A stretch of 64,000 nucleotides of DNA, from the NCBI RefSeq assembly GCF_001463885.1, contig NZ_BBWQ01000011.1, forward strand, positions 248,001 through 312,000. Direction: 5' to 3'. The notes below the pieces were generated by a model, which worked only from the letters and a program-made list of their open reading frames with translations, did not search any database and was not told where the DNA came from. Within the stretch, counting starts at the first letter, position 1, and each line of letters begins with the position of its first letter. Source of the DNA: Aureimonas altamirensis (GTDB lineage Bacteria; Pseudomonadota; Alphaproteobacteria; Rhizobiales; Rhizobiaceae). The position numbers and the translations under genes were made by a program. Positions 676 to 16,930 of this stretch are shown piece after piece.

Positions 676-689
676 ACAGGAGATGCCCA

Positions 690-1400
690 ATGCGCCTGAC
701 CGCCCTCATCGCCTGCGGGCTCTGGCTTTTCCCCGCTGTGGCGCCGGCCCAGGCGCCGGCCCCGCGCGAGATACCCGAAGGCTTCGTCCTGCCCGGCCCG
801 GCACCCAAGGGCAACGCCGCCGCAAACCCCGTCCTGGCCGCGCCGGAGCATCATGGCAGCGCCGACTGGCCCTGCATCCAGCGCAAGGTTGCCCGGATGG
901 ATGCCGCGCAGATCTGGCCCGCCGCGCCTGAAACCGTTGCCCAGCCGGAACGCACGCCGGCCGAGCGCCAGCTTGTGCGGGAGATCGCCCAGCGCCGCGT
1001 GCCGATACCAGATGCACGCCAGCGCCTGACCGACCATCTGGCGGCGTTGCCGCCGGAGCGGCGCAGGGCGGCTGCCGAAGCCGTCTTCATCGACCTGTTG
1101 CATGAGCTGAACCGCGAGCGGGCCGATGTCATCAACGGCATCGGCCGCTATGCCGGCAAGCAGAAGACCCTAGCCGAAAGCATCCGTGCCGAGACGGCAA
1201 AGTTCGACAGGCTGATGAGCCAGCCTATGCCCGACCAGAACGAAGTTGCCCGGGAACAGGAGGCCCTGCTTTGGCAGACGCGCGTCTTCGACGAGCGCCG
1301 CCAATCCCTGACATATGTCTGCGAGGTGCCTGTGCTGATCGAGCAGCGCATGTTTGCCCTTGGCCGGCTTCTTAAGGATTTTGCGGAGAACGATCGCTAG
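690..1400 (+). CDS. secreted protein of unknown function in the PQQ cluster
   Basis: I do not recognise a family. The ATG at 690 is preceded by an AGGAG ribosome site at 678-682, and the gene lies 14 bases after the permease stop, so the two are probably cotranscribed. A longer in-frame reading from 450 runs through the permease gene and is rejected. The 236-residue product starts with a clear signal peptide ending near AQA-PA. A Pro/Ala-rich stretch follows, then a helical region rich in Arg, Glu and Gln, with two Cys (in WPCIQ and TYVCEV) that could pair in the periplasm. Its 3' end overlaps the convergent DUF6522-like gene by 29 bases. Its role in alcohol oxidation is inferred only from position. 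Confidence 0.75.
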   Translation: MRLTALIACGLWLFPAVAPAQAPAPREIPEGFVLPGPAPKGNAAANPVLAAPEHHGSADWPCIQRKVARMDAAQIWPAAPETVAQPERTPAERQLVREIAQRRVPIPDARQRLTDHLAALPPERRRAAAEAVFIDLLHELNRERADVINGIGRYAGKQKTLAESIRAETAKFDRLMSQPMPDQNEVAREQEALLWQTRVFDERRQSLTYVCEVPVLIEQRMFALGRLLKDFAENDR

Positions 1401-2854: not shown

Positions 2855-3394
2855 CTATTGCGGCTCGTGCGGCTGCAAGGGCTGTCCGGCCTGCGACCAG
2901 CCGTCGGTGCCGTCCGGATACCAGGCGACGGAGGTATAACCCATGGCGATGGCACGTCGGGCGGCATTCCAGCTCATCCAGCAATTTCGCTGGCAGTAGA
3001 ACACCAGCGGATGGGCACGGTCGCCGCCACTGGCCTTTGCGAGTCCCTCGGTGAAGTAACGCTCCGTCTGCGGTGCGAGATCGCCATAACCCGTGTCGGC
3101 CAGCCAGACGGACCCCGGGATGGCGTCGCGACGTGCGGGATGCCAGATGGTGCCTTCCGGGAGATTGTCGGGCTTCGGCGCGCGCGGCAGCACATCGACG
3201 AACACCGCCTCGCCGTCGCGCCACAGGGCGACCGCTTCGTCGGTGGTCAATACATGCGCCCCGGCCAGCGTGGCCGGTGTCGGCGCACGGTAATCGGAGC
3301 GTCGATAGTCGCCGGGCTCGCTCACCTCAGCGGCGGCCTGTGCGCCGAAGACCAGCGACAGCAGCGCCAGCATGGCCGGGGCGGAGCGCCGCAT
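2855..3394 (-). CDS. PQQ-catabolism-associated Cys-Trp motif protein (rhodanese-like)
   Basis: This exported protein belongs to TIGR03865, the PQQ-dependent catabolism-associated CXXCW motif family. The 179-residue product begins at the ATG at 3394, four bases after the XoxJ stop, and has a signal peptide ending at AQAAAEV. The rest resembles a rhodanese fold: residues 58-70 read WRDGEAVFVDVLPR, and the putative active loop is VFYCQRNCWMSW, with Cys134, Cys138 and Trp139. The two Cys suggest persulfide, thiol-transfer or disulfide chemistry in the periplasm. Its partner is unknown. The SoxYZ-like carrier and SoxH-like hydrolase nearby are natural candidates. Confidence 0.88.
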   Translation of the reverse strand: MRRSAPAMLALLSLVFGAQAAAEVSEPGDYRRSDYRAPTPATLAGAHVLTTDEAVALWRDGEAVFVDVLPRAPKPDNLPEGTIWHPARRDAIPGSVWLADTGYGDLAPQTERYFTEGLAKASGGDRAHPLVFYCQRNCWMSWNAARRAIAMGYTSVAWYPDGTDGWSQAGQPLQPHEPQ

Positions 3395-3398
3395 GGTC

Positions 3399-4259
3399 TT
3401 ATCCGCCCTGCGCCGGAGCAATGGGGCGGTTCTGCTCGTCCAGCAGCGGGATGCCGTAGGACAACAGGATTTCGTTGATGTCATCCTGGTTTTCGGCGAT
3501 CACCCGGTTCAACGTGCGCTTCCACTCCTGGTCGCTCGGCCGTACACCCATGGTGATGCGAAACACCATTGCCGGCCCGCGCGGCTCTTTCAGCAAGGGT
3601 ACGACAACGTAGTCGGCGCCGGCCTTGCCGGCCTGGTACGCGGCCAGCGGGCCCCAGAGAACGGCTGCATCGATGACGCCGTTTTCCAGATCCGCCATCA
3701 TGTCGGCTGCGGAATTGTCGATCCTCGTATCGACCATGAGCTGGTAGCCCTTGGCCTTGCCCATCAACCCGGCCTTGGCGATGAAGGTTGCCGGCGGCGT
3801 ACCGGCGACGACGCCGACCGTCTTGTCCTTCAGCCGCGCATCTTCCAGCGTTTCGACGCCGTCGAGCCCGCTGCCCTTGCGATAGACGATCGCATAGGCG
3901 GTGCGGTAGTAGGCGTTGGTGTTCTGGACCAGTTCGTCGCCCTGCGGATAGCTCATGATGATATCGCAGCGATGCAGGCCCAGCGTCATCCGCACGAAAC
4001 CGGTCGCCTGCGGAAAGTAGGTATAGCTGACCGACTTGCGGCCGAGCTTGCCCGCAAGGAAGGTGGCGAGTTCGTTTTCGAAACCTTCGCCCTTCTGGTT
4101 GGAATAGGGCATGGAGTTGGGATCGGCGCAGACGCGCAGTACGTCGGGATCGACCAGCTCGATGGCTCCGCCGAAATCCCTGTCCTGCGCACGGGCGGAA
4201 GCCGGCGCAAGGGCGCCGGCCACCATAAGCGCGATCATGAGCGTCAGAAGCCGAGGCAT
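3399..4259 (-). CDS. xoxJ: XoxJ/MxaJ-like quinoprotein-associated periplasmic binding protein
   Basis: This 286-residue periplasmic protein has the fold of family-3 solute-binding proteins (TIGR03871, quinoprotein dehydrogenase-associated). Such proteins are thought to help mature or activate methanol dehydrogenase rather than import a nutrient. A signal peptide ends near ASARAQD, and motifs such as LRVCADPNSMPYSNQKGEGF, DIIMSYPQGDE and VGVVAGTPPATF are typical. The ATG at 4259 overlaps the end of the cytochrome gene by 16 bases, consistent with translational coupling. Position directly behind xoxF and the cytochrome gene is the standard xoxFGJ order. Confidence 0.92.
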   Translation of the reverse strand: MPRLLTLMIALMVAGALAPASARAQDRDFGGAIELVDPDVLRVCADPNSMPYSNQKGEGFENELATFLAGKLGRKSVSYTYFPQATGFVRMTLGLHRCDIIMSYPQGDELVQNTNAYYRTAYAIVYRKGSGLDGVETLEDARLKDKTVGVVAGTPPATFIAKAGLMGKAKGYQLMVDTRIDNSAADMMADLENGVIDAAVLWGPLAAYQAGKAGADYVVVPLLKEPRGPAMVFRITMGVRPSDQEWKRTLNRVIAENQDDINEILLSYGIPLLDEQNRPIAPAQGG

Positions 4260-4792
4260 TCGTTTTCCGCCGCGCGTGCCTGTTCGTTGATCGGCGGACG
4301 CTTCGGCTCTCCCTTGCCGACGACGCCGTCCGTACGGGCGCGGAGATAGACGTAGATGGCGTCCAGATAGCACATCACGTTCTTGTCTTCGCCCCAGGCC
4401 GGCATCACCGAATTGCCGCCGGTGTTCCACACGTTCTGCTGTCCGCCGACGACGACGCCGGTGAAGGCGTAGTAATCCATCTGCTTGAGGGATTCCGTCA
4501 GGTTGGGCGCGAAGGACGAGCCCTGCCCGTCCGGCCCATGGCACTGCATGCAGTTGGCCGTGTATTTCTTGTAGCCGCGCCACGTATAGAAATCGGCGGT
4601 CCCGTCCTGCTGCAGCGAATAGGTCGGCACGTCGGCGGAGTCCACGAACTTGCCGTTTTCCCCCTCCGTCGCCTCGACACCGTTGTTGACGGTGTCGAGC
4701 GATGGATGGGCAGAAGGCTGCTGCTGCTGCGCCGACGCCGTCCCCATTGCGAGGAAGACGACGCCGGCAAACGCCAAGATTACCCTGTTCAT
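4244..4792 (-). CDS. xoxG: methanol-oxidation c-type cytochrome (XoxG-like)
   Basis: This exported monohaem cytochrome c is the likely electron acceptor of XoxF. The start at 4792 is preceded by GGAG at a good distance and gives a 182-residue precursor with a signal peptide ending at ASAQ. A start at 4822 is possible but less well placed. The haem site is CMQCH at residues 81-85, and Met130 in NSVMPAWG is the probable axial ligand. Two further Cys, 141 and 179, match the four-Cys methanol-metabolism cytochrome family (TIGR03874). The gene starts 19 bases after the xoxF stop. Confidence 0.92.
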   Translation of the reverse strand: MNRVILAFAGVVFLAMGTASAQQQQPSAHPSLDTVNNGVEATEGENGKFVDSADVPTYSLQQDGTADFYTWRGYKKYTANCMQCHGPDGQGSSFAPNLTESLKQMDYYAFTGVVVGGQQNVWNTGGNSVMPAWGEDKNVMCYLDAIYVYLRARTDGVVGKGEPKRPPINEQARAAENECLGF

Positions 4793-4811
4793 CGACAAAC
4801 CGTCTCCGATC

Positions 4812-6668
4812 TTAATTGCCATCGGTCGCGGAGGCTGTCTGGTCGGGTACGGTGAAGACGGTCAGCTGCCCGCCCAGTGCCGTGTATCGGGACAGCGAGG
4901 CATAGCCGCCGACCGCGCCGAGGCCGTCATTGGCATCGGTCAGGCCAGCCGCGAGGCCGATGCCGGCCCAGCCGCCGATGCCGGACAATACGGCCACATA
5001 CTGCTGCCCGTCGCGCTCATAGGTCGTGACGTTGCCGATGATGCCGGACGGCGTCTTGAAGCTGTAGAGCTCCTTGCCCGTTTCCGCGTCGACGGCCTTC
5101 AGGTAGCCTTCCAGCGTTCCGTAGAAGACGACGCCGCCACCGGTGGCCAGCGCGCCCGACCACACCGAGAACTTCTCGGGGATCGACCATTTGATCTCGC
5201 CCGAGCTGGCGTCCCAGGCAATGAAGTTGCCCATGCCGCCATGGCTGTTCGGCGCCGGATACATCGACAGGGTTGCGCCGACATAGGGTTGCCCGGCCGT
5301 GTAGGCGACGCGGAACGGCTCGTAGTCCATGCAGACGTGATTGGTCGGCACGTAGAACATGCCCGTGTCCGGAGAGAACGCGGCCGGCTGCTGGTCCTTG
5401 GTGCCCAGGGCCGCCGGGCAGATGCCCGTGGTGTTGACGTCTTCGCCGTTGAATTCCGTCGAATACTGGTCCACCACCTGCGGCCGGCCGTACTGATCGG
5501 AGTTCTTGTCCATCACCACTTCGGTCGCCCAGTTGACGACCGGGTCGTATTTCTTGGCTACCAGCAACTCGCCCGATACCCGGTCGAGCGTGTAGGCAAA
5601 GCCGTTCCGGTCGAAATGCACGAGCGCCTTGCGGTCCTGTCCATCCACCGGAATATCGGCCAGGATCATCTCGTTGACGCCGTCGAAATCCCATTCGTCG
5701 TGCGGGGTCATCTGGTAGACCCATTTCGCCATGCCGGTATCGGCATCGCGGGCGAAGATGGTCATCGACCATTTATTGTCGCCAGGGCGCTGCGAGGGGT
5801 TCCAGGTCGATGGGTTGCCCGAGCCGTAATAGACGAGGTTCGTCTCCGGATCGTAGGAGAACCAACCCCAGGTCGTGCCGCCGCCGATCTTCCACTGATC
5901 GCCTTCCCAGGTCTTGAGGGACGAATCCTTGCCCACCGGCTTGCCGAGTTCGGTCGTCTTTTCCGGATCGAAGAGCATCTCCTCGTCCGGCCCGGTCGAA
6001 TAGGCGCGCCAGGCGACGGAACCGTCCTTCAGATTATAGGCGGTCAGCGAGCCGCGCACGCCGAACTCGCCGCCGGAAATGCCGATATAGACCTTGTCCT
6101 TCACCACCAGCGGCGCGGCCGTGCCGGTTTCGCCCTTGGACGCATCGCCATTCTTGACCGACCAGAGCTGCTCGCCCGTGTCGGCATTGAGCGCGACGAC
6201 CGAGGTGTCGGCCTGATGCAGGATGATCTTGGCCGGCTGATCGCCCTCGGGCGGCACATAGGCGACGCCGCGGTTCACGGTGTCGCAGCACATCACCGGG
6301 ATGACGTTGGCATCCTGACGCGGCTCGTATTTCCACTTGATCGCGCCGTCTTCGGAAAGATCGAGCGCGTAGACGATGTTGGGGAACGGCGTATGCACGA
6401 ACATCGTGTCGCCGATCACGAGGGGGCCGCCTTCATGACCACGCAAGACGCCGGTCGAGAAGGACCAGGCGACCTGAAGATCGCCCACATTGGCCTTGTC
6501 GATGTTCTTGAGCGGCGAGTAACGGGTATTAGCGTAGTCGCCCGACTGCATGACCCAGTTGGTCGGATCCTTGCCGAGCTCAGCGAGAGACTCGTTGGCC
6601 CCCGCACCGGAACTCAGGGCAAGCAGCATCGTCGAGGCGGCGGCCGCCTTCGTTATGGATTTCAGCAC
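4812..6668 (-). CDS. xoxF: lanthanide-type PQQ methanol dehydrogenase XoxF
   Basis: This periplasmic quinoprotein oxidises methanol, and possibly formaldehyde or ethanol, with PQQ as cofactor. I chose the GTG at 6668 because GGGAGGA lies just ahead of it; an ATG at 6686 would put that site inside the gene. The 618-residue product has a signal peptide ending near GAGA. It has tryptophan-docking repeats of an eight-bladed propeller, the vicinal disulfide Cys127-Cys128 (VMCCDTV) that stacks on PQQ, and catalytic Asp327 in HDEWDFDG. Asp329, two residues later, is the extra lanthanide ligand that distinguishes XoxF from calcium-type MxaF, which has Ala there. It heads the xoxF-xoxG-xoxJ operon. 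Confidence 0.97.
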
Positions 6669-7196
6669 GGATTCCTCCCAAAGCAAGCGTCAGCAAGCCA
6701 TGCGCGGTCGCGGAACCGCACGAGCAACATCGCAATGTTAATTGGGGACGGTTTCCGGCAGCGTGTCACGACCGCCAATAGGGGTCCTGGTGGGCACCGT
6801 TAAAGTTCGCCCTACCGAGGCCTTCGAGATCTGTCGACGCTCCCAACACCGACAGCCTTGAAGCCGGAAACCAAGGATGAAGCTAGGCCGAGTTTCCCGT
6901 TTGTGCAAGTATCAATTGAAAGAATTTGTTGCTGCAACGCAAACACATATATCATTGCACCGCAGCAAGGACAATATTGTAAGTAAATATGGCTCGCGTA
7001 ACGGCGTTACATAAGATGATATCACGGCGACACGAGGCCCCATGACGAAGATCGGCTTTCGATCAACCGGTTCGACGCAGGTCTAAACTGCCTTCCAGGG
7101 GTGGCATGAACTGCAACTCGACGATCGGGATATGGGAGCTCAACCTGAAATTGTTGTTCGGTCCCCTTTGCTTCCGACTAATGGAAAGGTTCTATT
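6669..7196. promoter_or_regulatory. divergent control region between xoxF and the SoxH-like gene
   Basis: These 528 bases carry no supported gene. They separate the leftward xox operon from the rightward SoxH/SoxYZ operon and must hold both promoters. Composition drops sharply from about 6890 to 7020, where A/T runs include ATATATCATTG and the palindrome CAATATTG. The xoxF ribosome site GGGAGGA is at 6674-6680 on the minus strand. A GGAAAGG stretch precedes the GTG at 7197. I could not assign a specific regulator site or a convincing -35/-10 pair. Confidence 0.6.
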
Positions 7197-8156
7197 GTGA
7201 TCCGTATCCTGAATCCGACATGGACTTTTTCCCGACTTCAAGCAGCACAGGGCTTTGCGGCCGTCGCGGTCATATGGGGCATGGGCTTTTCGGAAGCTGC
7301 CGAACCCATCGACTTCAAGGAAATGGAGCCCGGACTGTACATTCATGTCGGCCAGGTGGCAGTGCCGGACAGCGCGAATCAGGGTGATACGTCCAATATC
7401 GCCTTCGTCGTCGGCAACGACATGGTGGTTGTGGTGGACGCCGGCGGCAGCCGAGCCATTGGGCAAGCCACGCTGGACGCGATCCGGGGCGTGACGGACA
7501 AGCCGGTCGGCTGGCTTATCCTGACACACATGCACCCGGACCATGTCGCCGGATCCGCTCCGCTGGTGGAGGCCGGCGCAACCGTGATCGCGCATTCCGG
7601 ATACGAGGCGTCCATCGCGCCGCGCCGCGACTTCTACCGCGATCTCGAAGTTCGGCGGCAGGACGGTGATCCGGAGGCGTTCTTCTTTTCCGCGCCCGAC
7701 GAGGTGGTGGAGGGCGATCGCATCATCGATCTCGGCAACCGCCGGCTCCGGCTGACATCCTGGCCGGTTGCCCACACGGCAACCGACCTGACCGTGCTGG
7801 ACGAAACGTCCGGGACGTTGATCGCCGGCGACCTCGTCTTTGTCGACCACGTGCCGACGCTCGATGGCAGCCTGAAAGGCTGGATCGCAGCCTTGCCGCA
7901 ACTGGCGGCCATCCCCGCCCGGCAGGTCGTGCCGGGCCATGGCCCGGCGCCGCAGCCCTGGCCGGAGGCACTGCGCAATGAGGCCCGCTACCTTGACGTG
8001 CTTGCCCGCGACATCAGGGCGCAGATCGCGTCCGGCGGCTCGATCGGCGCGGCCCAGACCGGCGCTGCGGCGTCCGAACGCGGGAAATGGGCGCTCTTCG
8101 ATGCGTATAACGGGCAAAACGTGTCTGCCGCCTTCACCGAGCTCGAATGGGAATAG
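7197..8156 (+). CDS. SoxH-like quinoprotein relay zinc metallohydrolase
   Basis: This is an exported metallo-beta-lactamase-fold hydrolase of the quinoprotein relay / SoxH-related families (TIGR04558/TIGR04559), 319 residues. The metal ligands are visible: His111, His113, Asp115 and His116 in THMHPDH, His193 in VAHTATD, Asp212 in IAGDL and His248 in VPGHGP, so a two-metal site is intact. A signal sequence covers about the first 35 residues and ends near SEAAE. The GTG start is preceded by GGAAAGG. It is followed 65 bases later by the SoxYZ-like carrier. Its substrate is not known; hydrolysis of a thioester or adduct held on the carrier Cys is an inference from the Sox parallel. Confidence 0.9.
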   Translation: MIRILNPTWTFSRLQAAQGFAAVAVIWGMGFSEAAEPIDFKEMEPGLYIHVGQVAVPDSANQGDTSNIAFVVGNDMVVVVDAGGSRAIGQATLDAIRGVTDKPVGWLILTHMHPDHVAGSAPLVEAGATVIAHSGYEASIAPRRDFYRDLEVRRQDGDPEAFFFSAPDEVVEGDRIIDLGNRRLRLTSWPVAHTATDLTVLDETSGTLIAGDLVFVDHVPTLDGSLKGWIAALPQLAAIPARQVVPGHGPAPQPWPEALRNEARYLDVLARDIRAQIASGGSIGAAQTGAAASERGKWALFDAYNGQNVSAAFTELEWE

Positions 8157-8221: not shown

Positions 8222-9022
8222 ATGGCCGCCATGCCTATCAACCGCTTTTCAAGCGCAGCTCTCGTCGCGCTCGTTCTTGGCTTGTCCGTTACGGCCGGGG
8301 CCGGGCCAAGCCGGGCGTCCGACAGTTGGAGCGAATTGAAGGGCGCCATCTTCGGAGACCGAGCCATCGCGGATGATCGCGTGGTGGAGTTGGAAGCGCC
8401 ATCCAGAGCCACCGACCCGGCCGTCGTGCCCGTCGTCATCCGGCTTGCCGAAGATGCGGCGATCAAGCAGGTGACTTTGATCGTCGATGAAAACCCGGCA
8501 CCCGTCGCCGCCACCTTCACCCTCGGGCCGGATACGGGCATCCGCTCCATCGAGACGCGCTTGCGCGTCAACGCCTACAGCAATGTGCGCGCCGTCGCCG
8601 AGACGGCCGATGGGGCACTGCATGAGTCCGTCGTCTATGTGAAGGCGTCCGGAGGCTGCGCCGCGCCTGCCGCCCGCAACCCCGCCGAGGCTGCGTCCAC
8701 CCTGGGCGAAATGCGGCTGCGGCGCCTGGTGGAGGCGGCCAACGGCCAGACCCAGGAAGCGCAGTTGATGATCCGCCACCCCAATAATTCCGGGCTGCAG
8801 CGCGATCAGGTGACGCATCTCTACATTCCGGCGCATTTCGTCTCCGACCTGGAAGTGCGGTTGGACGACAAGCCCTTTCTGTCCATGAGCGGCGGGATCA
8901 GCATTTCCGAGGACCCGAATTTCCGCTTCCGCTACGATGGGCCGGAGGGCGTGTTCCGGGTGATCGCATCGGACACGGAAGGGCAGACCTTCGCCAAGGT
9001 CTTCAGCCCCGGAGAGGGCTGA
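8222..9022 (+). CDS. quinoprotein-associated fused SoxYZ-like carrier protein
   Basis: This is an exported single-chain fusion of SoxY-like and SoxZ-like domains (TIGR04557). The ATG at 8222 has an ideal GGAGGAT site at 8210-8216; an upstream in-frame ATG at 8147 overlaps the previous gene and is rejected. The 266-residue product has a signal peptide ending near SRASD, a SoxY-like half to about residue 142 and then GGC with Cys146. A short Ala/Pro linker (AAPAARNPAEAAS) leads to a SoxZ-like half to the end. In true SoxY the GGCGG arm is at the extreme C-terminus; here the carrier Cys lies between the domains. The cargo is unknown. It is paired with the SoxH-like hydrolase. Confidence 0.9.
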   Translation: MAAMPINRFSSAALVALVLGLSVTAGAGPSRASDSWSELKGAIFGDRAIADDRVVELEAPSRATDPAVVPVVIRLAEDAAIKQVTLIVDENPAPVAATFTLGPDTGIRSIETRLRVNAYSNVRAVAETADGALHESVVYVKASGGCAAPAARNPAEAASTLGEMRLRRLVEAANGQTQEAQLMIRHPNNSGLQRDQVTHLYIPAHFVSDLEVRLDDKPFLSMSGGISISEDPNFRFRYDGPEGVFRVIASDTEGQTFAKVFSPGEG

Positions 9023-9029
9023 AAGCCGC

Positions 9030-9377
9030 TCAGAAACAGCGTACCTCTGCTTCGGCCTGCGCGCGGCGCAGATCGCCGATGGCGGCTTTCGCCGGGGCGG
9101 ACGTGCGGAAGACGACGCCCTTCTCGCCGGTCACCTGCCCCATCGACAGGTATGTGCTGGCTTCGACATAGCGCGCATAGGGAACGATGGAGGCCACCAC
9201 GTCGAACGAGCAGGAGCATTGGCGCAGCGCCTGCTGCGTCTGTCCGTTGGTTTGCATGCAGGCAAAGACGTAGTCGGCGACGGCGTCCGTCGGATAGTCG
9301 TTCGTGACGGCGCCGGAGGGCGCCACAAAAAGCCCGCATGCCAAAATGGCCATGAGGCCGATGGATCGCTTCTTCAT
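9030..9377 (-). CDS. small exported Cys-rich protein of the quinoprotein cluster
   Basis: I recognise this only as a conserved-looking small secreted protein, with no functional name. The 115-residue precursor has a signal peptide ending near PSGA. The mature part has Cys40, the pair Cys54 and Cys56 in RQCSCSF, and Cys114 two residues from the end, which suggests disulfides or a metal or thiol role. The ATG overlaps the stop of the beta-propeller gene by four bases (ATGA), so the two are translationally coupled. The gene converges with the SoxYZ-like gene, leaving only seven bases between them. Confidence 0.75.
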   Translation of the reverse strand: MKKRSIGLMAILACGLFVAPSGAVTNDYPTDAVADYVFACMQTNGQTQQALRQCSCSFDVVASIVPYARYVEASTYLSMGQVTGEKGVVFRTSAPAKAAIGDLRRAQAEAEVRCF

Positions 9378-10345
9378 TCGGACCTCCCTTGGCCGCCGTC
9401 ATAGGCGACGAATTTGCCGAAGGCGCGCGGGCCGTCGCCCACCGCCACCTCGCCCACACGCTGCAATGTCGCAGCATCGATCTTCATCAGCGTATTATCG
9501 AACCAGTTGACCACGTAGAGCGCGCGTCCATCCCCGGCCGCCGCGATCCCTTCCGGATATTCCCCGACATCGACCGTCCCGACAGGCGCAAATGTTTCGG
9601 CGTCGAATACGCTGACCGTCGCACCGTGCTGGTCGGTGGCGAAGACCCGGCCGGAGGCGGTGGCCGTCGCATAGGGCCGGTCACCGACAGGCACGCTGGC
9701 CACTGTCGCCAGCGAAGCCACATCGACGATGCTGACATCGTTGGACACGACGTTGGCGACATGCAGCCGGCTGCCATCGGGCGAAAACTCGACGCCGAAA
9801 GGGCGCTCGCCCACCGGCACGGTTCCGACAAGCGCCATCTTGCCGGTCTCGAAGACGGAGATGCGGTTGGAATCCCGGTCGGCCGTCACAACCAGCCTGC
9901 CATCCGGAGATACCGCGACGCCCGACGGAGAAAGGCCGGTCGCCACCTCGGCGATTATGCGGCCATCTTCGGGGTCCACGACCGACAGTCGATGGGCATA
10001 CCAGTCCGCCACATAGACCGGCGCGCCCGATGGATGCACCGCGACGCCCAGCGGCCCGCCCTTCACCTCGATGCGGCGCGCCACCCTTGCCGCCTTGGTA
10101 TCGATCACGGTGAGCGTGCCGGATTCCGGGCTGGTCACATAGGCATGGCGTCCATCCGGCGGCACGGCGACACCGGCGGGCTTACCGCCGATGGGGATGG
10201 TTGCCACGACGCGCATGGACGTCAGGTCCACGACCGACAGATCGTCGCTCGACTGGTTGGTGACATAGGCCGTGTCCGCCCCGGCGCCCGTTGCCGTCAG
10301 AAGGGCGGCCGCCAGTACCGCGCACCGAAAGACCGATGCCGGCAT
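9374..10345 (-). CDS. PQQ-cluster YVTN beta-propeller protein
   Basis: This exported beta-propeller protein of 323 residues is built from about seven YVTN-type repeats, such as YVTNQSSDDLSVVD, YVTSPESGTLTVID and YVADWYAHRLSVVD. It matches the PQQ-dependent catabolism-associated beta-propeller family (TIGR03866), whose role is not known; a scaffold or binding function is likely. A signal peptide ends near ATGAGA. It lies four bases after the SRPBCC gene and overlaps the next gene by four bases, forming a three-gene operon of secreted proteins running towards the SoxYZ-like gene. Confidence 0.88.
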   Translation of the reverse strand: MPASVFRCAVLAAALLTATGAGADTAYVTNQSSDDLSVVDLTSMRVVATIPIGGKPAGVAVPPDGRHAYVTSPESGTLTVIDTKAARVARRIEVKGGPLGVAVHPSGAPVYVADWYAHRLSVVDPEDGRIIAEVATGLSPSGVAVSPDGRLVVTADRDSNRISVFETGKMALVGTVPVGERPFGVEFSPDGSRLHVANVVSNDVSIVDVASLATVASVPVGDRPYATATASGRVFATDQHGATVSVFDAETFAPVGTVDVGEYPEGIAAAGDGRALYVVNWFDNTLMKIDAATLQRVGEVAVGDGPRAFGKFVAYDGGQGRSE

Positions 10346-10349
10346 GGAA

Positions 10350-10886
10350 TCAGGACCCGTTTTCCAGACTGGCCTTCAACCCCTCCACGACCTTTTCCTG
10401 CATGGCGGCCACGGCATCGTTGGCGGCCTTGTCGTTGAGGTTTTCCGGCGGCTCGTTGTTCGGATAGCCCCGGTAGTAGGCGCTGCGAATCTCGATCTCG
10501 GATTTGTCGCCCCCGGCTGCGGGCTTCACCGTCAGGAACTCGCTGTAATTGGTCACGGGCAAAACCGCGGTACCCACCTCGGGCATCTGGATCTGGTAGC
10601 TCATGCGCGCGGCATCGTATTTGTAGAGCTCCTGTCGCAGGACCCCACCATCCTTCAGCGTCACCTCGCGCACGCTGTTCACCGCGTTGCCCGGTTCGGC
10701 CTTGACCGAGGCAACCAGCGGATTCCACGACAGATCGTCGAAATTGCCGATCTTCTGCCAGACGGCGACCGGCGCCATGTCGACTTCGATGGACGTGGCA
10801 TGCTTCTGCCGCGACGGGCCGTGCGCAAGGGCTATGCCCGGCAGGACCGTCAGGGCCAGTGTCAACGCGACCAAGCTACGTGTCAC
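10350..10886 (-). CDS. exported SRPBCC-fold protein
   Basis: This 178-residue secreted protein has an SRPBCC (START/Bet v1-like) ligand-binding fold. The pattern ATSIEVDMAPVAVWQKIGNF and the later SEIEIRSAYYRGYP are typical of polyketide-cyclase-like members. The start is taken as GTG at 10886 because GGGAGGA lies just before it; a TTG at 10901 would contain that site. The signal peptide ends at IALAHG. It is the first gene of the SRPBCC, propeller and Cys-rich protein operon. Most SRPBCC proteins are cytoplasmic, so a periplasmic copy in a quinoprotein cluster is uncommon. Its ligand is unknown. Confidence 0.8.
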   Translation of the reverse strand: MTRSLVALTLALTVLPGIALAHGPSRQKHATSIEVDMAPVAVWQKIGNFDDLSWNPLVASVKAEPGNAVNSVREVTLKDGGVLRQELYKYDAARMSYQIQMPEVGTAVLPVTNYSEFLTVKPAAGGDKSEIEIRSAYYRGYPNNEPPENLNDKAANDAVAAMQEKVVEGLKASLENGS

Positions 10887-11010
10887 GCTATCCTCCCTCA
10901 AGACGCAACGGTGCCCAGGCGAAACGCTATGACGTCCGCTCCATCATGGGAAGGCCGAAGGAATTTTCGGAAACGATATCGGGAAGATTTCCCGGCAGCC
11001 CTGGGAAGAA

Positions 11011-13544: not shown

Positions 13545-14396
13545 TCAGGCGATAAGCGAATAGACGAAGCGCGCACAGATCAGCAGCAGGAAGATGCCGA
13601 AGGCCATCTCCAGCCGCTTCTTGTTCAACCTGTGCGCAAGCGCGGCGCCCATCGGCGCGGTGATGACGCTGGTGATGGAAAACAGCGCGAAGCCGATCAC
13701 CGAGACGTAGCCGAAAGCGAGCGGCGGTTGCAATGCCGCGATGCCGGGGTACTGCGCCGCAGCGGGCCAGCCGGCATAGATGTAGCCGATCGTTCCCGGA
13801 ATGGAGATGATGACGCCCAGCCCCGACGATGTCGCCACGGCCTGGTGGATGGGGCGGCTGTAGAAGGTCATGAAGAGCGACGAAAGCTGCCCGCCGCCGA
13901 TGCCCATCAGGGCCGAGAGAATGCCGATGACCCAGCCGTAGATCACCATCACGACCCGGCCGGGCATATCCAGGCCAAGACGCCAGCTTTCCCGGCCGAA
14001 CAGAAGTTTGACGGCCGAAATGCCCGCCACGACGATGAAGACGATCTTGAACAGGTCGGCCGGGGCATAGCGGGCGATGAAGCTTCCGGCCGCGACGCCC
14101 AGCACCACCGGTATCGCCCACACTTTCAGGATCGACATGTCCACCGCGCCGCGCCGCCGGTGCGCGCTGAAAGAGCGGATCGAGGTCGGGATGATGATGG
14201 CGAGCGAGGTGCCGATGCACAGCGGCATGCGCACATCTTCCGGAACGCCCAGGATGCGGAAGAGCTCGTACAGGATCGGCACCGCCACGGCCCCGCCCCC
14301 GACGCCGAATACCCCGGCCAGAAGGCCGGTAACCGCCCCGCCGGCCAGAAGCGCCAAGGCGAGCCAGATCGCCTCCCCCATTGCGATATCGATCAT
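13545..14396 (-). CDS. TauE/SafE family anion exporter
   Basis: This is a polytopic inner-membrane protein of the TauE/SafE (DUF81) family, which exports sulfite, sulfoacetate or related small anions. From the ATG at 14396, preceded by GGGGAGA, it has 283 residues with about eight transmembrane segments. The two family repeats are visible as [18 protein letters not shown] near the N-terminus and [17 protein letters not shown] in the second half. The actual substrate cannot be read from sequence. It is directly upstream of pncB, but no metabolic link is obvious. A short extension to 14420 lacks a ribosome site. Confidence 0.9.
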
Positions 14397-14482
14397 GTCG
14401 TCTCCCCTCGTGCCCCCCACTCATAGGTGCGGGGAACACGGTGGCACAAGGTGTGCGTGCGGATATTTCGCCTTGCGCCGCG

Positions 14483-16762
14483 TCAGAACGTGGTGCTGAC
14501 CTTGAGGTAGAAGGACCGGCCGGGCTCGTTGAAGGTTGCCGCGCCGGCTGCGTTGCCGCTGCCCTTGCGGAACAGCCGCTCGTCGAAGATGTTGCTGACG
14601 CCGGCGCCGATCCGCAATTGCTCGTTGGCCTGGAAGTCCACGTTGAAGCCCACCAGCGTATACGGATCGAGATCGTCCGTATTGGTTGCCAGGCGCCCCG
14701 TCACGACGTTGCGGGAGGGTGCTTCCGTCTTGCCGTAGTGCGTCAGCGTCAAGGCGGTGAACAGGCGTTCCGTGGCCTGCCACTCCAGTGCGGTGTTGAT
14801 CGTGTATTCCGGCACCAGGGACAACGGATTGCCGGTTTCCTTGTCCTCCGATTCCAGCATGTAGGTGGCGTTGGTGCGCCAGTTCACCGAGTCCAGCAGC
14901 GGCACCAGAAGGTTGCCTTCCAGCCCGGACAGCACCGCCTTCGGCGTGTTGTCCCACTGGAACAACTGCGCACGCCCCAGAACCGCGACGGGCACCACGC
15001 CCGCCGTGATGCGGTCCTTGTAGTCATTGTGGAAGTAGGTCAGGCCCGCCTGCCATCCGGCATCGTTGATATAGTTGATGCCGACTTCCTTGTTGATGCT
15101 CGTCTCGGCCTTCAGGTCGGGATTGCCGATGACGTAGCAACCGAGCCCGAGCGATTGGAAGTTGAAGGGGCAGCCGTTGCCCATGGTGAAATAGACGTAG
15201 TTTTCATTGAGCTGGTACAGGTTGGGCGCCTTGAAGGCTCTTGCGATGCCCGCCTTCAGCGAAATCTCGTCGGTCAGGTCGTAGGAGGCGTTGAGGCTGG
15301 GGCTGGCATTGCCGCCGAACTCGCTGTGATAATCGCCCCGGATGCCCGGCGTCACGATCAGCTTGTCCGTGACGTGGATATTGTCTTCCAGATACAGGCC
15401 GTAAAGCTGCGCGTCGATCTTCGAGTCGCGGTCGGCGGGGTCGGATGGGACGCCGGGAATGACCACGCCCGAGGCAATCCCCTGCCGCAGCGACACAGGG
15501 TCGTCCATGTACTCGCCGCGGAATTCGGCGCCCACTGTGACGTTCTGGTCGAAGTGATAAGTGAAGGGGATGTTGAATTCCGACTTCGCCGCCCAGTTGT
15601 CGAGCGTGATCGTGCCCTTTTCCAGATTGCTGCTGATCGCCCCCTCGCCGCTTCCGGCCGTTCCTTCCAGGAAGCGGTTGTTGCGGGTGTTCTCCCACTG
15701 CACATACGAGTTCGAGGTGCCGAACTCGTAATTGCCGCGGTGGGTCAGTGCCAGCGTGGTGCGGTAGAGCGTGTTGGTCTCCTCGCCCTGGCTGGCCAGT
15801 TCCTCGATGATGCTGCTGGTGCCGGCAAGCTGCCGGTCGCCGGTGAAGATGTTGCCCTGCCGGCTGTAGCCGGCCTCGAACTCGAACTCGTGGGACTCGT
15901 TGGCATACCAGGTCAGCACGCCGCGCACGTCCTTGTTGACGACACCCTCGCGCCCGGCCGGTATGTCGGTCGGCAGCAGGGCCGCGTCGGCGTTGATCGC
16001 CGGGTCGTCGGCGTTGGTCTTGCTGTAGCTGCCGTAGACCCGGTAGGCGAAGTCCTGCCCCAGGGGCCCGCCCGCAAAAACGTTGCCGCGGAAGGTCTTG
16101 CCCTCTTCCGAGTGCTGCGGAATGTTGACGTAGCTCGAAACGGTGACGCTCTGCTCGGCAGGGCGCTTGGTGATGATGTTCACGACGCCGCCCGCCGCAC
16201 CCGAACCGTAGCGCGCGGCGGCCGGGCCGCGCAGCACCTCGATCCGCTCGACCGCCTCGGGCGGCACCCAGTTGGAGTCGCCGCGCGTGTCGCGCTCGCC
16301 GGAGCGGCCGTAGCGGACGGCATTGCGCGACAGGACAGGCTTGCCGTCGATCAGGATCAGCGTGTTTTCCGGCCCCATGCCGCGAATGTCGATCTGGCGG
16401 TTGTTGCCACGCACGCCCGACGCCGAATTGCCGGTGAGGTTCACGCCCGGCTGCCGGCGGATGATGTCGGACAGGTCGTTGACCGGGGGCCGATGATCGA
16501 TGTCGGTGGCGGTGATGATCGAAACGCCCGGCGCCTGCTTCAATTGTTCGTCGGCCGAAAGCACCAGCACCTCGTCGAGCGCGATGGCCTCGCCGGCCGG
16601 AAGAACGCTTTCGCCTTCCTCGATCTGCTCCTGCGCAACGGCGCCTTCCTGGGCTGCGGCATGGCCCACCGGTACGGACAGGGCGATCAGCAGCCCGATG
16701 GCGGTACCGGAGCGGAGGACGGTTCGGTTTGTAAGAGTGCGCGACAAGGCGAAAATCTCCAT
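14483..16762 (-). CDS. FepA-like TonB-dependent outer-membrane receptor
   Basis: This outer-membrane gated channel most resembles the FepA/PirA/IroN class of catecholate siderophore receptors. From the ATG at 16762 it has 759 residues. A signal peptide ends near GHAAAQ. A plug domain contains [38 protein letters not shown] and [10 protein letters not shown], a 22-strand barrel follows, and the C-terminus ends in aromatic Phe (KVSTTF). The segment [17 protein letters not shown] is characteristic of FepA-type plugs. Reading from 16873 would add 37 residues from a structured leader and is rejected. The substrate may be ferric enterobactin-like; a metal chelate used by XoxF is a possibility with no direct support. 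Confidence 0.9.
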
Positions 16763-16930
16763 AGGCAAGCCGTTTCCCGGCTTTTGGGAGAAGCCGGGAT
16801 CAGGTGATGAGCTGGAATGGAAAACCGTGGCGCTGGCGGCGGCTACTGCCCGGACTTTCAGGTTCGCCCCCATGTGACACAGGAGCCTGAAAGCTAAAAG
16901 TAGATTCCTGCACTCAACTATTGCAACTGG
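16763..16930 (-). promoter_or_regulatory. structured leader and promoter region of the TonB receptor
   Basis: On the minus strand, TTGCAA followed 18 bases later by TACTTT (about 16926 to 16897) is a plausible promoter. An 8-base inverted repeat (CTTTCAGG at 16855-16862 and CCTGAAAG at 16886-16893) lies just downstream. Nearer the ATG are two hairpins that share an arm. One pairs 16776-16783 with 16791-16798 over 8 bp, and the other pairs 16767-16772 with 16778-16783 over 6 bp. They cannot form together, and the second ends four bases before the start codon. I could not match this to cobalamin, TPP or FMN riboswitch consensus elements. Confidence 0.45.

Follow-up and report, generated by a model that had tools for sequence, protein, structure and literature searches.

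Fused SoxYZ carriers and the Aureimonas locus

Carriers in which SoxY and SoxZ are joined in one chain, encoded next to quinoprotein dehydrogenases, have already been described (PMC11237559, PMC12997753, PMC11582611), with members of the family noted in lucinid symbionts (PMC11237559), the ped cluster of P. putida (PMC12997753), Hyphomicrobium (PMC11582611) and Methylophaga (PMC6548844), and no demonstrated function for them was found in the literature searched. The closest described systems are those of profile TIGR04557 (compare SoxYZ-S4, PMC11237559, and PP_2677 of P. putida, PMC12997753), which have the same fusion, a GGC in mid-chain and a common set of neighbours, namely XoxF or another PQQ dehydrogenase, a SoxH-like protein of the MBL fold and a rhodanese-like protein. 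Also close are the type 1 fusions found with metallohydrolase TIGR04558 (probably SoxYZ-S2, PMC11237559), again a fused carrier with an invariant cysteine, an MBL neighbour and a PQQ dehydrogenase. The SoxYZ of the thiosulfate pathway (Paracoccus 2OX5/2OXG/2OXH; Thermus 4UWQ) has the same two half folds and places its cysteine after the last SoxY strand behind a Gly-Gly, but is made of two chains, and only two residues follow the cysteine before the free C-terminus (GGCGG).

The carrier considered here lies at 8222-9022 on the plus strand of the window, by which is meant the whole 64,000-nucleotide stretch of Aureimonas altamirensis DNA that was analysed. It shares all the features of the TIGR04557 systems and differs from most of its relatives only in an arm reading GGCAAP rather than GGCSAP, nothing else about it being distinctive. 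In contrast to the thiosulfate-pathway protein it is one chain, A/S-A-P comes after its cysteine and a linker then runs into the SoxZ half, and its genome is without SoxB. What is new here is a count of cysteine conservation on unfiltered sequences, a set of arm classes, a fusion that keeps GGCGG, a carrier-centred pattern in evolutionary rates, hydrolase partners with degenerate metal sites and a four-cysteine protein.

Sequence and predicted structure of the carrier

The reading frame is intact and encodes 266 residues, with a GGAGG (ribosome-binding) immediately 5' of the ATG at 8222; an alternative in-frame ATG at 8147 would only lengthen the N-terminus. Residues 1-32 are predicted to be a probable Sec signal peptide. 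Against TIGR04557 the chain scores 274 bits (cut-off 140) over profile positions 1-225 of 226, both halves lie on the one chain with the conserved cysteine in between, and a PQQ dehydrogenase gene (4812-6686) and a SoxH-like MBL gene (7197-8156) stand alongside, so that by sequence this reads as a clear member of the quinoprotein dehydrogenase-associated SoxYZ-like carriers. The profiles for the canonical proteins stay below their cut-offs (TIGR04488 for SoxY 70.2 bits against 125, TIGR04490 for SoxZ 55.5 against 76). A search of phage records found no relative.

Cys146, the only cysteine of the carrier (codon TGC, 8657..8659, plus strand), sits within VKASGGCAAP in mid-chain, at the end of the SoxY half, and is followed by AAPAARNPAEAAST. 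PF13501 (SoxY) covers residues 42-146 and stops exactly at Cys146, at its own profile end (112/112), and PF08770 (SoxZ) covers residues 171-259. Between Cys146 and the first SoxZ strand there is a linker of about 15 residues (147-160, encoded at 8660..8701 on the plus strand), as placed by the secondary structure of an AlphaFold (AF2) model. This model was made from an 87-row alignment from which rows from plasmid records were left out, and has a mean pLDDT of 89.4 and a pTM of 0.84. In it the last SoxY strand spans 133-142, Cys146 lies in the loop that comes next, and a short helix at 154-159 precedes the first SoxZ strand at 164-170. Each half has the expected fold: residues 34-145 match SoxY (2oxg_B, VIA Z 11.4, rmsd 2.2 over 108 residues) and residues 161-264 match SoxZ (1v8h_A, VIA Z 8.0, rmsd 2.3 over 103 residues).

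The original prediction had held that the reactive cysteine, carried in classical SoxY on a free C-terminal arm, is here locked between the two domains and tethered at both ends, and both the sequence and the model agree with it, in that the Cys146 arm is placed as anchored at each end between the SoxY-like and SoxZ-like sandwiches. The local pLDDT averages 75 over residues 141-150, with 97 before and 89 after, and the model suggests that the loop is exposed and mobile.

Conservation and classes of the cysteine arm

Whether Cys146 is kept among orthologues was one point on which that prediction could have fallen, and it is kept throughout. All 80 GTDB fusion loci, fetched by peptide patterns lying outside the GGC, have the GGC, and when this set was enlarged by more distant loci the cysteine was present in 137/137 distinct fusions, with Pro149, three residues past it, retained in 135 of them. 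Completely invariant positions are few, only nine in a diverse subset of 93 fusions. An earlier study also separated two fusion clades, and because its sequences had been pre-filtered for GGC (PMC11237559) the present count of cysteine conservation is independent of it. At the comparison loci for unfused SoxY the classical arrangement holds, GGCGG standing at the protein end in 20 of 23 (two of the 23 being duplicates).

The arms fall into classes. Where the neighbours are a XoxF5-type enzyme and metallohydrolase 2 the carrier has VKASGGC[SA]AP, and the type 1 carriers, which accompany enzymes of ExaA/PedE type together with metallohydrolase 1, have DAAGGGC[ST]xP. A third form, VKTSGQGAC[SA]APPG, belongs to a second carrier in some Roseobacter relatives; these second carriers (L060:8835-9638, L122:5689-6495, L140:13631-14431) lie near the XoxF5 cluster and form a branch of their own with L131 (97/94). 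One fusion alone (L109, 1480-2271, minus strand) retains the canonical GGCGG, in mid-chain.

In a tree of both halves the unfused SoxYZ form one group (99/97) and the type 1 fusions a separate one (100/99), and the GGCGG fusion is placed weakly beside the type 2 fusions (94/61). It is possible that the GGCGG fusion is an intermediate on the way from unfused SoxYZ to the type 2 fusions. If the tree is rooted among the unfused SoxYZ it suggests that fusion came earlier than the change of the arm, and one or two fusion events are both compatible with it.

The XoxF cluster and its distribution

Immediately upstream of the carrier, at 7197..8156 on the plus strand, is the gene for the SoxH-like MBL-fold hydrolase (TIGR04559, 342.8 bits, cut-off 280), whose metal ligands are complete (HxHxDH, H, D and H, at 111, 113, 115, 116, 193, 212 and 248). 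The dehydrogenase gene, at 4812..6686 on the minus strand, encodes a XoxF-type PQQ alcohol dehydrogenase (TIGR03075, 750.6 bits) with a vicinal CC and the motif EWDFDGV, the DFD of which we take to be the signature of lanthanide enzymes. On the same strand follow a c-type cytochrome related to methanol metabolism (4244..4822; TIGR03874, 166.7 bits, cut-off 161.75), a XoxJ/MoxJ-like periplasmic binding protein of uncertain start codon (3399..4343; TIGR03871, 285.7 bits) and a rhodanese-like CXXCW-motif protein, the motif here being YCQRNCW (2855..3484; TIGR03865, 228.5 bits; PF00581). Past the carrier, again on the minus strand, are a YVTN-type beta-propeller protein (9374..10345; TIGR02276 repeats 218 bits, TIGR03866 182 bits and below cut-off) and an SRPBCC-fold protein (10350..10901; PF10604, 77.1 bits), the latter being shared by the clusters of some relatives.

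A sample of 398 genomes of the phylum contains 44 with the fusion, and a PQQ alcohol dehydrogenase over cut-off accompanies it every time (44/44, against 95/398 overall; hypergeometric p 3e-32); TIGR04559, metallohydrolase 2, is found in 32 genomes, 31 of which have the fusion (p 1e-34), both p-values treating genomes as independent though related genomes are not. At the other 13 fusion genomes a related MBL gene adjoins the fusion by coordinates, and MBL loci checked from several of these pass the cut-off of TIGR04558. Several carriers, for example at six Ancylobacter loci, have no adjoining MBL gene. The 32nd genome, without the fusion, has an MBL protein (L147, G364:C8:195000-211000; TIGR04559, 384.6 bits) beside soxB with unfused SoxYZ nearby, and because of this match "quinoprotein relay metallohydrolase 2" is a name that takes in the SoxH of Sox clusters as well.

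Evolutionary distances between genes of the same clusters were compared by partial correlation against the shared background, with a bootstrap over loci. In 28 loci the carrier correlates with the MBL protein (partial r 0.67 [0.47, 0.76]) and with XoxF (0.54 [0.34, 0.68]), and the MBL protein and XoxF give 0.03 [-0.17, 0.31], values to be read with the provisos that locus pairs are non-independent, that adjacent genes share history and that the least noisy gene tends to appear central. In the three-gene set the MBL-XoxF value is 0.28, with an interval that includes zero. XoxF and the cytochrome, an expected pair serving as positive control, give 0.32 [0.09, 0.56], and in a smaller set of 15 loci the CXXCW rhodanese-like protein correlates with the carrier at 0.44 [0.11, 0.66]. 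That the doubly tethered arm would reach fewer partners, as the original prediction supposed, is a hypothesis, and the rates indicate two or more close partners for the carrier. They are suggestive of its sitting between XoxF and the SoxH-like hydrolase, which is the pattern that a relay would predict.

Possible roles for the carrier

Because of its SoxYZ ancestry the fusion is read as a carrier, and probably its task is to pass an adduct from the dehydrogenase on to the metallo-hydrolase encoded beside it, not to take part in ordinary sulfur oxidation. The fuller proposal, to which we give about an even chance, is of a one-chain periplasmic covalent carrier of SoxYZ type belonging to the XoxF system and cycling between the dehydrogenase and the SoxH-like hydrolase. 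After export to the periplasm the Cys146 thiol would receive a small adduct at the dehydrogenase or close to it, and the hydrolase encoded next door would then unload the cargo by hydrolysis, this direction of transfer being the presumed one. The whole would amount to a minimal Sox cycle in which loading falls to XoxF and unloading to the MBL protein. MBL-fold enzymes do cleave thioesters, glyoxalase II being one, and an unloading step of this kind has a described counterpart in Sulfurimonas, where, according to work cited in PMC11237559, SoxH frees sulfate from SoxY. Counting against a relay, disruption of the homologous genes in P. putida gave minimal phenotypes on alcohols, lanthanides not being supplied (PMC12997753). 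Were the relay to hold, lanthanide-dependent methanol oxidation would include a covalent protein-thiol step missing from current pathway maps, and Sox chemistry would be reused outside sulfur oxidation.

Given a relay, the cargo might be sulfite, thiosulfate or another sulfur species, which would else form adducts with PQQ or with dehydrogenase thiols, a view held at somewhat short of even confidence. The lean towards sulfur exists because one carrier-hydrolase pair goes with both XoxF5-type and ExaA/PedE-type dehydrogenases, which act on different alcohols, because the rhodanese-like protein is in the set and is correlated with the carrier, and because thiosulfate is reported to inhibit growth of Hyphomicrobium on methanol (PMC12997753). 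A pair shared by dehydrogenases of different alcohols is easier to reconcile with looking after the cofactor than with a single substrate. The SoxYZ ancestry is itself counted toward a sulfur cargo. Clearance of a sulfur-type adduct is thus weakly favoured over an aldehyde thioester, the latter being nearly as good.

That second cargo belongs to an aldehyde relay, in which Cys146 would react with formaldehyde or another aldehyde to a hemithioacetal, the quinoprotein would oxidise this to an S-acyl thioester and the glyoxalase-II-like MBL protein would hydrolyse the thioester to the acid; we regard it as unlikely, though a serious candidate. It would be, with the same limited likelihood, a protein-thiol counterpart of the glutathione route for formaldehyde, the logic of thiol carrier, dehydrogenase and thioesterase being possibly shared with hydroxymethylglutathione dehydrogenase and S-formylglutathione hydrolase, whereas the carrier system would use a periplasmic protein thiol, a PQQ enzyme and an MBL-fold hydrolase. 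The MBL protein here, with its full two-metal ligand set, has a weak match to hydroxyacylglutathione hydrolase (25.5 bits), although this GloB match is far under cut-off. The company of the genes also fits: in Sagittula the genes for S-formylglutathione hydrolase and S-hydroxymethylglutathione dehydrogenase lie between XoxF5 and the hydrolase, and in Azospirillum fae, mch and the gene for methylene-H4MPT dehydrogenase adjoin the carrier-hydrolase pair. The central place of the carrier between XoxF and the MBL protein suits an aldehyde relay equally well. Yet the same organisms already possess glutathione or H4MPT routes, the type 1 pairs serve dehydrogenases of very different alcohols, and PQQ dehydrogenases are able to oxidise aldehydes themselves.

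A more specific form of the relay, and a rather doubtful one, has XoxF itself form or oxidise the adduct on Cys146 and the MBL protein remove it, as a three-protein periplasmic thiol relay in lanthanide methanol oxidation. With XoxF as the loading enzyme, an internal loop instead of a free swinging arm may visit the two enzymes.

It is improbable that the carrier, together with the CXXCW, four-cysteine and thioredoxin-like proteins, serves maturation or redox care, building or repairing the dehydrogenase's vicinal disulfide or protecting its thiols, with the MBL protein as an accessory. Such a role has been put forward (PMC12997753), and the vicinal CC motif of XoxF, the CxxxCW motif of its rhodanese-like neighbour and a thioredoxin-family gene near the Phyllobacterium cluster would all suit it. 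However, a carrier with a single cysteine needs a partner for a cycle of disulfide exchange, and an MBL hydrolase would be needless, although it is the most constant companion of the carrier. Further, P. aeruginosa is without these genes and its ExaA nevertheless has the disulfide (PMC12997753).

It is very improbable that the fusion stands in for SoxYZ in thiosulfate oxidation by a Sox pathway, since, although both halves are homologous to SoxY and SoxZ and SoxB occurs in 20 of the 44 fusion genomes, SoxB is absent from the other 24, many of those with SoxB have unfused SoxYZ as well, the carrier locus has no Sox genes, and in the host genome (99.98% complete) no second SoxY domain and no SoxB over cut-off were found (best 37.9 bits against 550). 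The original expectation of a delivery role different from sulfur oxidation is strengthened by these counts, set beside the constant presence of the PQQ dehydrogenase.

Hydrolases with degenerate metal sites

The ligand set HHDHHDH is present in 114 of 120 MBL sequences. In five partners that bear the name quinoprotein relay system zinc metallohydrolase 1 (L121, L125, L126, L127, L142), all beside type 1 carriers, three of the seven ligands are replaced, giving NHDYHGH, in that HxHxDH has become NxHxDY (NLHPDY) and GD has become GG; one further partner is degenerate, and the carriers beside these degenerate partners keep the cysteine. From their sequences the five NHDYHGH proteins have probably lost hydrolase activity, with the carrier cysteine kept. 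In four of the five loci with a ligand-poor MBL protein the paired carrier has C-T-V instead of C-[ST]-A. Because five partners have lost three ligands and one more is degenerate, all beside carriers that bear the cysteine, hydrolysis would not be universal among these systems.

A four-cysteine protein and other neighbours

Tail-to-tail with the carrier, at 9030..9377 on the minus strand, is a gene for a secreted helical protein of 115 residues with four cysteines (C40, C54, C56, C114). Its motif is CMxxNGx..CxCS..RCF, all four cysteines are invariant in 93/93 sequences, and the tail-to-tail arrangement recurs in 91 loci. The protein has no match in Pfam or NCBIfam. Its AF2 model is helical (pLDDT 87.7), and a comparison of the model with PDB folds yielded no trustworthy hit, the best values being Foldseek E 3.2 and VIA Z 5.1. 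It occurs in 36 of the 398 genomes, all 36 of which have the PQQ dehydrogenase, the two genes being within 15 kb of each other in 15 of 16 checked. A specific tie of the protein to the carrier was considered and dropped, as six genomes without the fusion have the four-cysteine gene within 15 kb of the PQQ dehydrogenase gene, and because of these six its primary link would be to XoxF clusters.

Two transporters had been considered as support for a sulfur cargo and were set aside. A TauE/SafE-type sulfite exporter (13545-14420, minus strand) accompanies the carrier in close relatives alone, and unrelated neighbours go with it there. Of the YeeE type, the genome has one copy about 110 kb past the end of the window and another on a different contig; in Hyphomicrobium a YeeE-type transporter adjoins the homologous cluster (PMC11582611). 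Elsewhere in the window a secreted protein without a Pfam match (678-1400, plus strand) is encoded right after an ABC-2 permease gene, a type of permease also found near other carriers, and a TonB-dependent receptor gene (14483-16873, minus strand), conceivably one for metal (lanthanide) uptake, lies about 4 kb past the XoxF accessory cluster.
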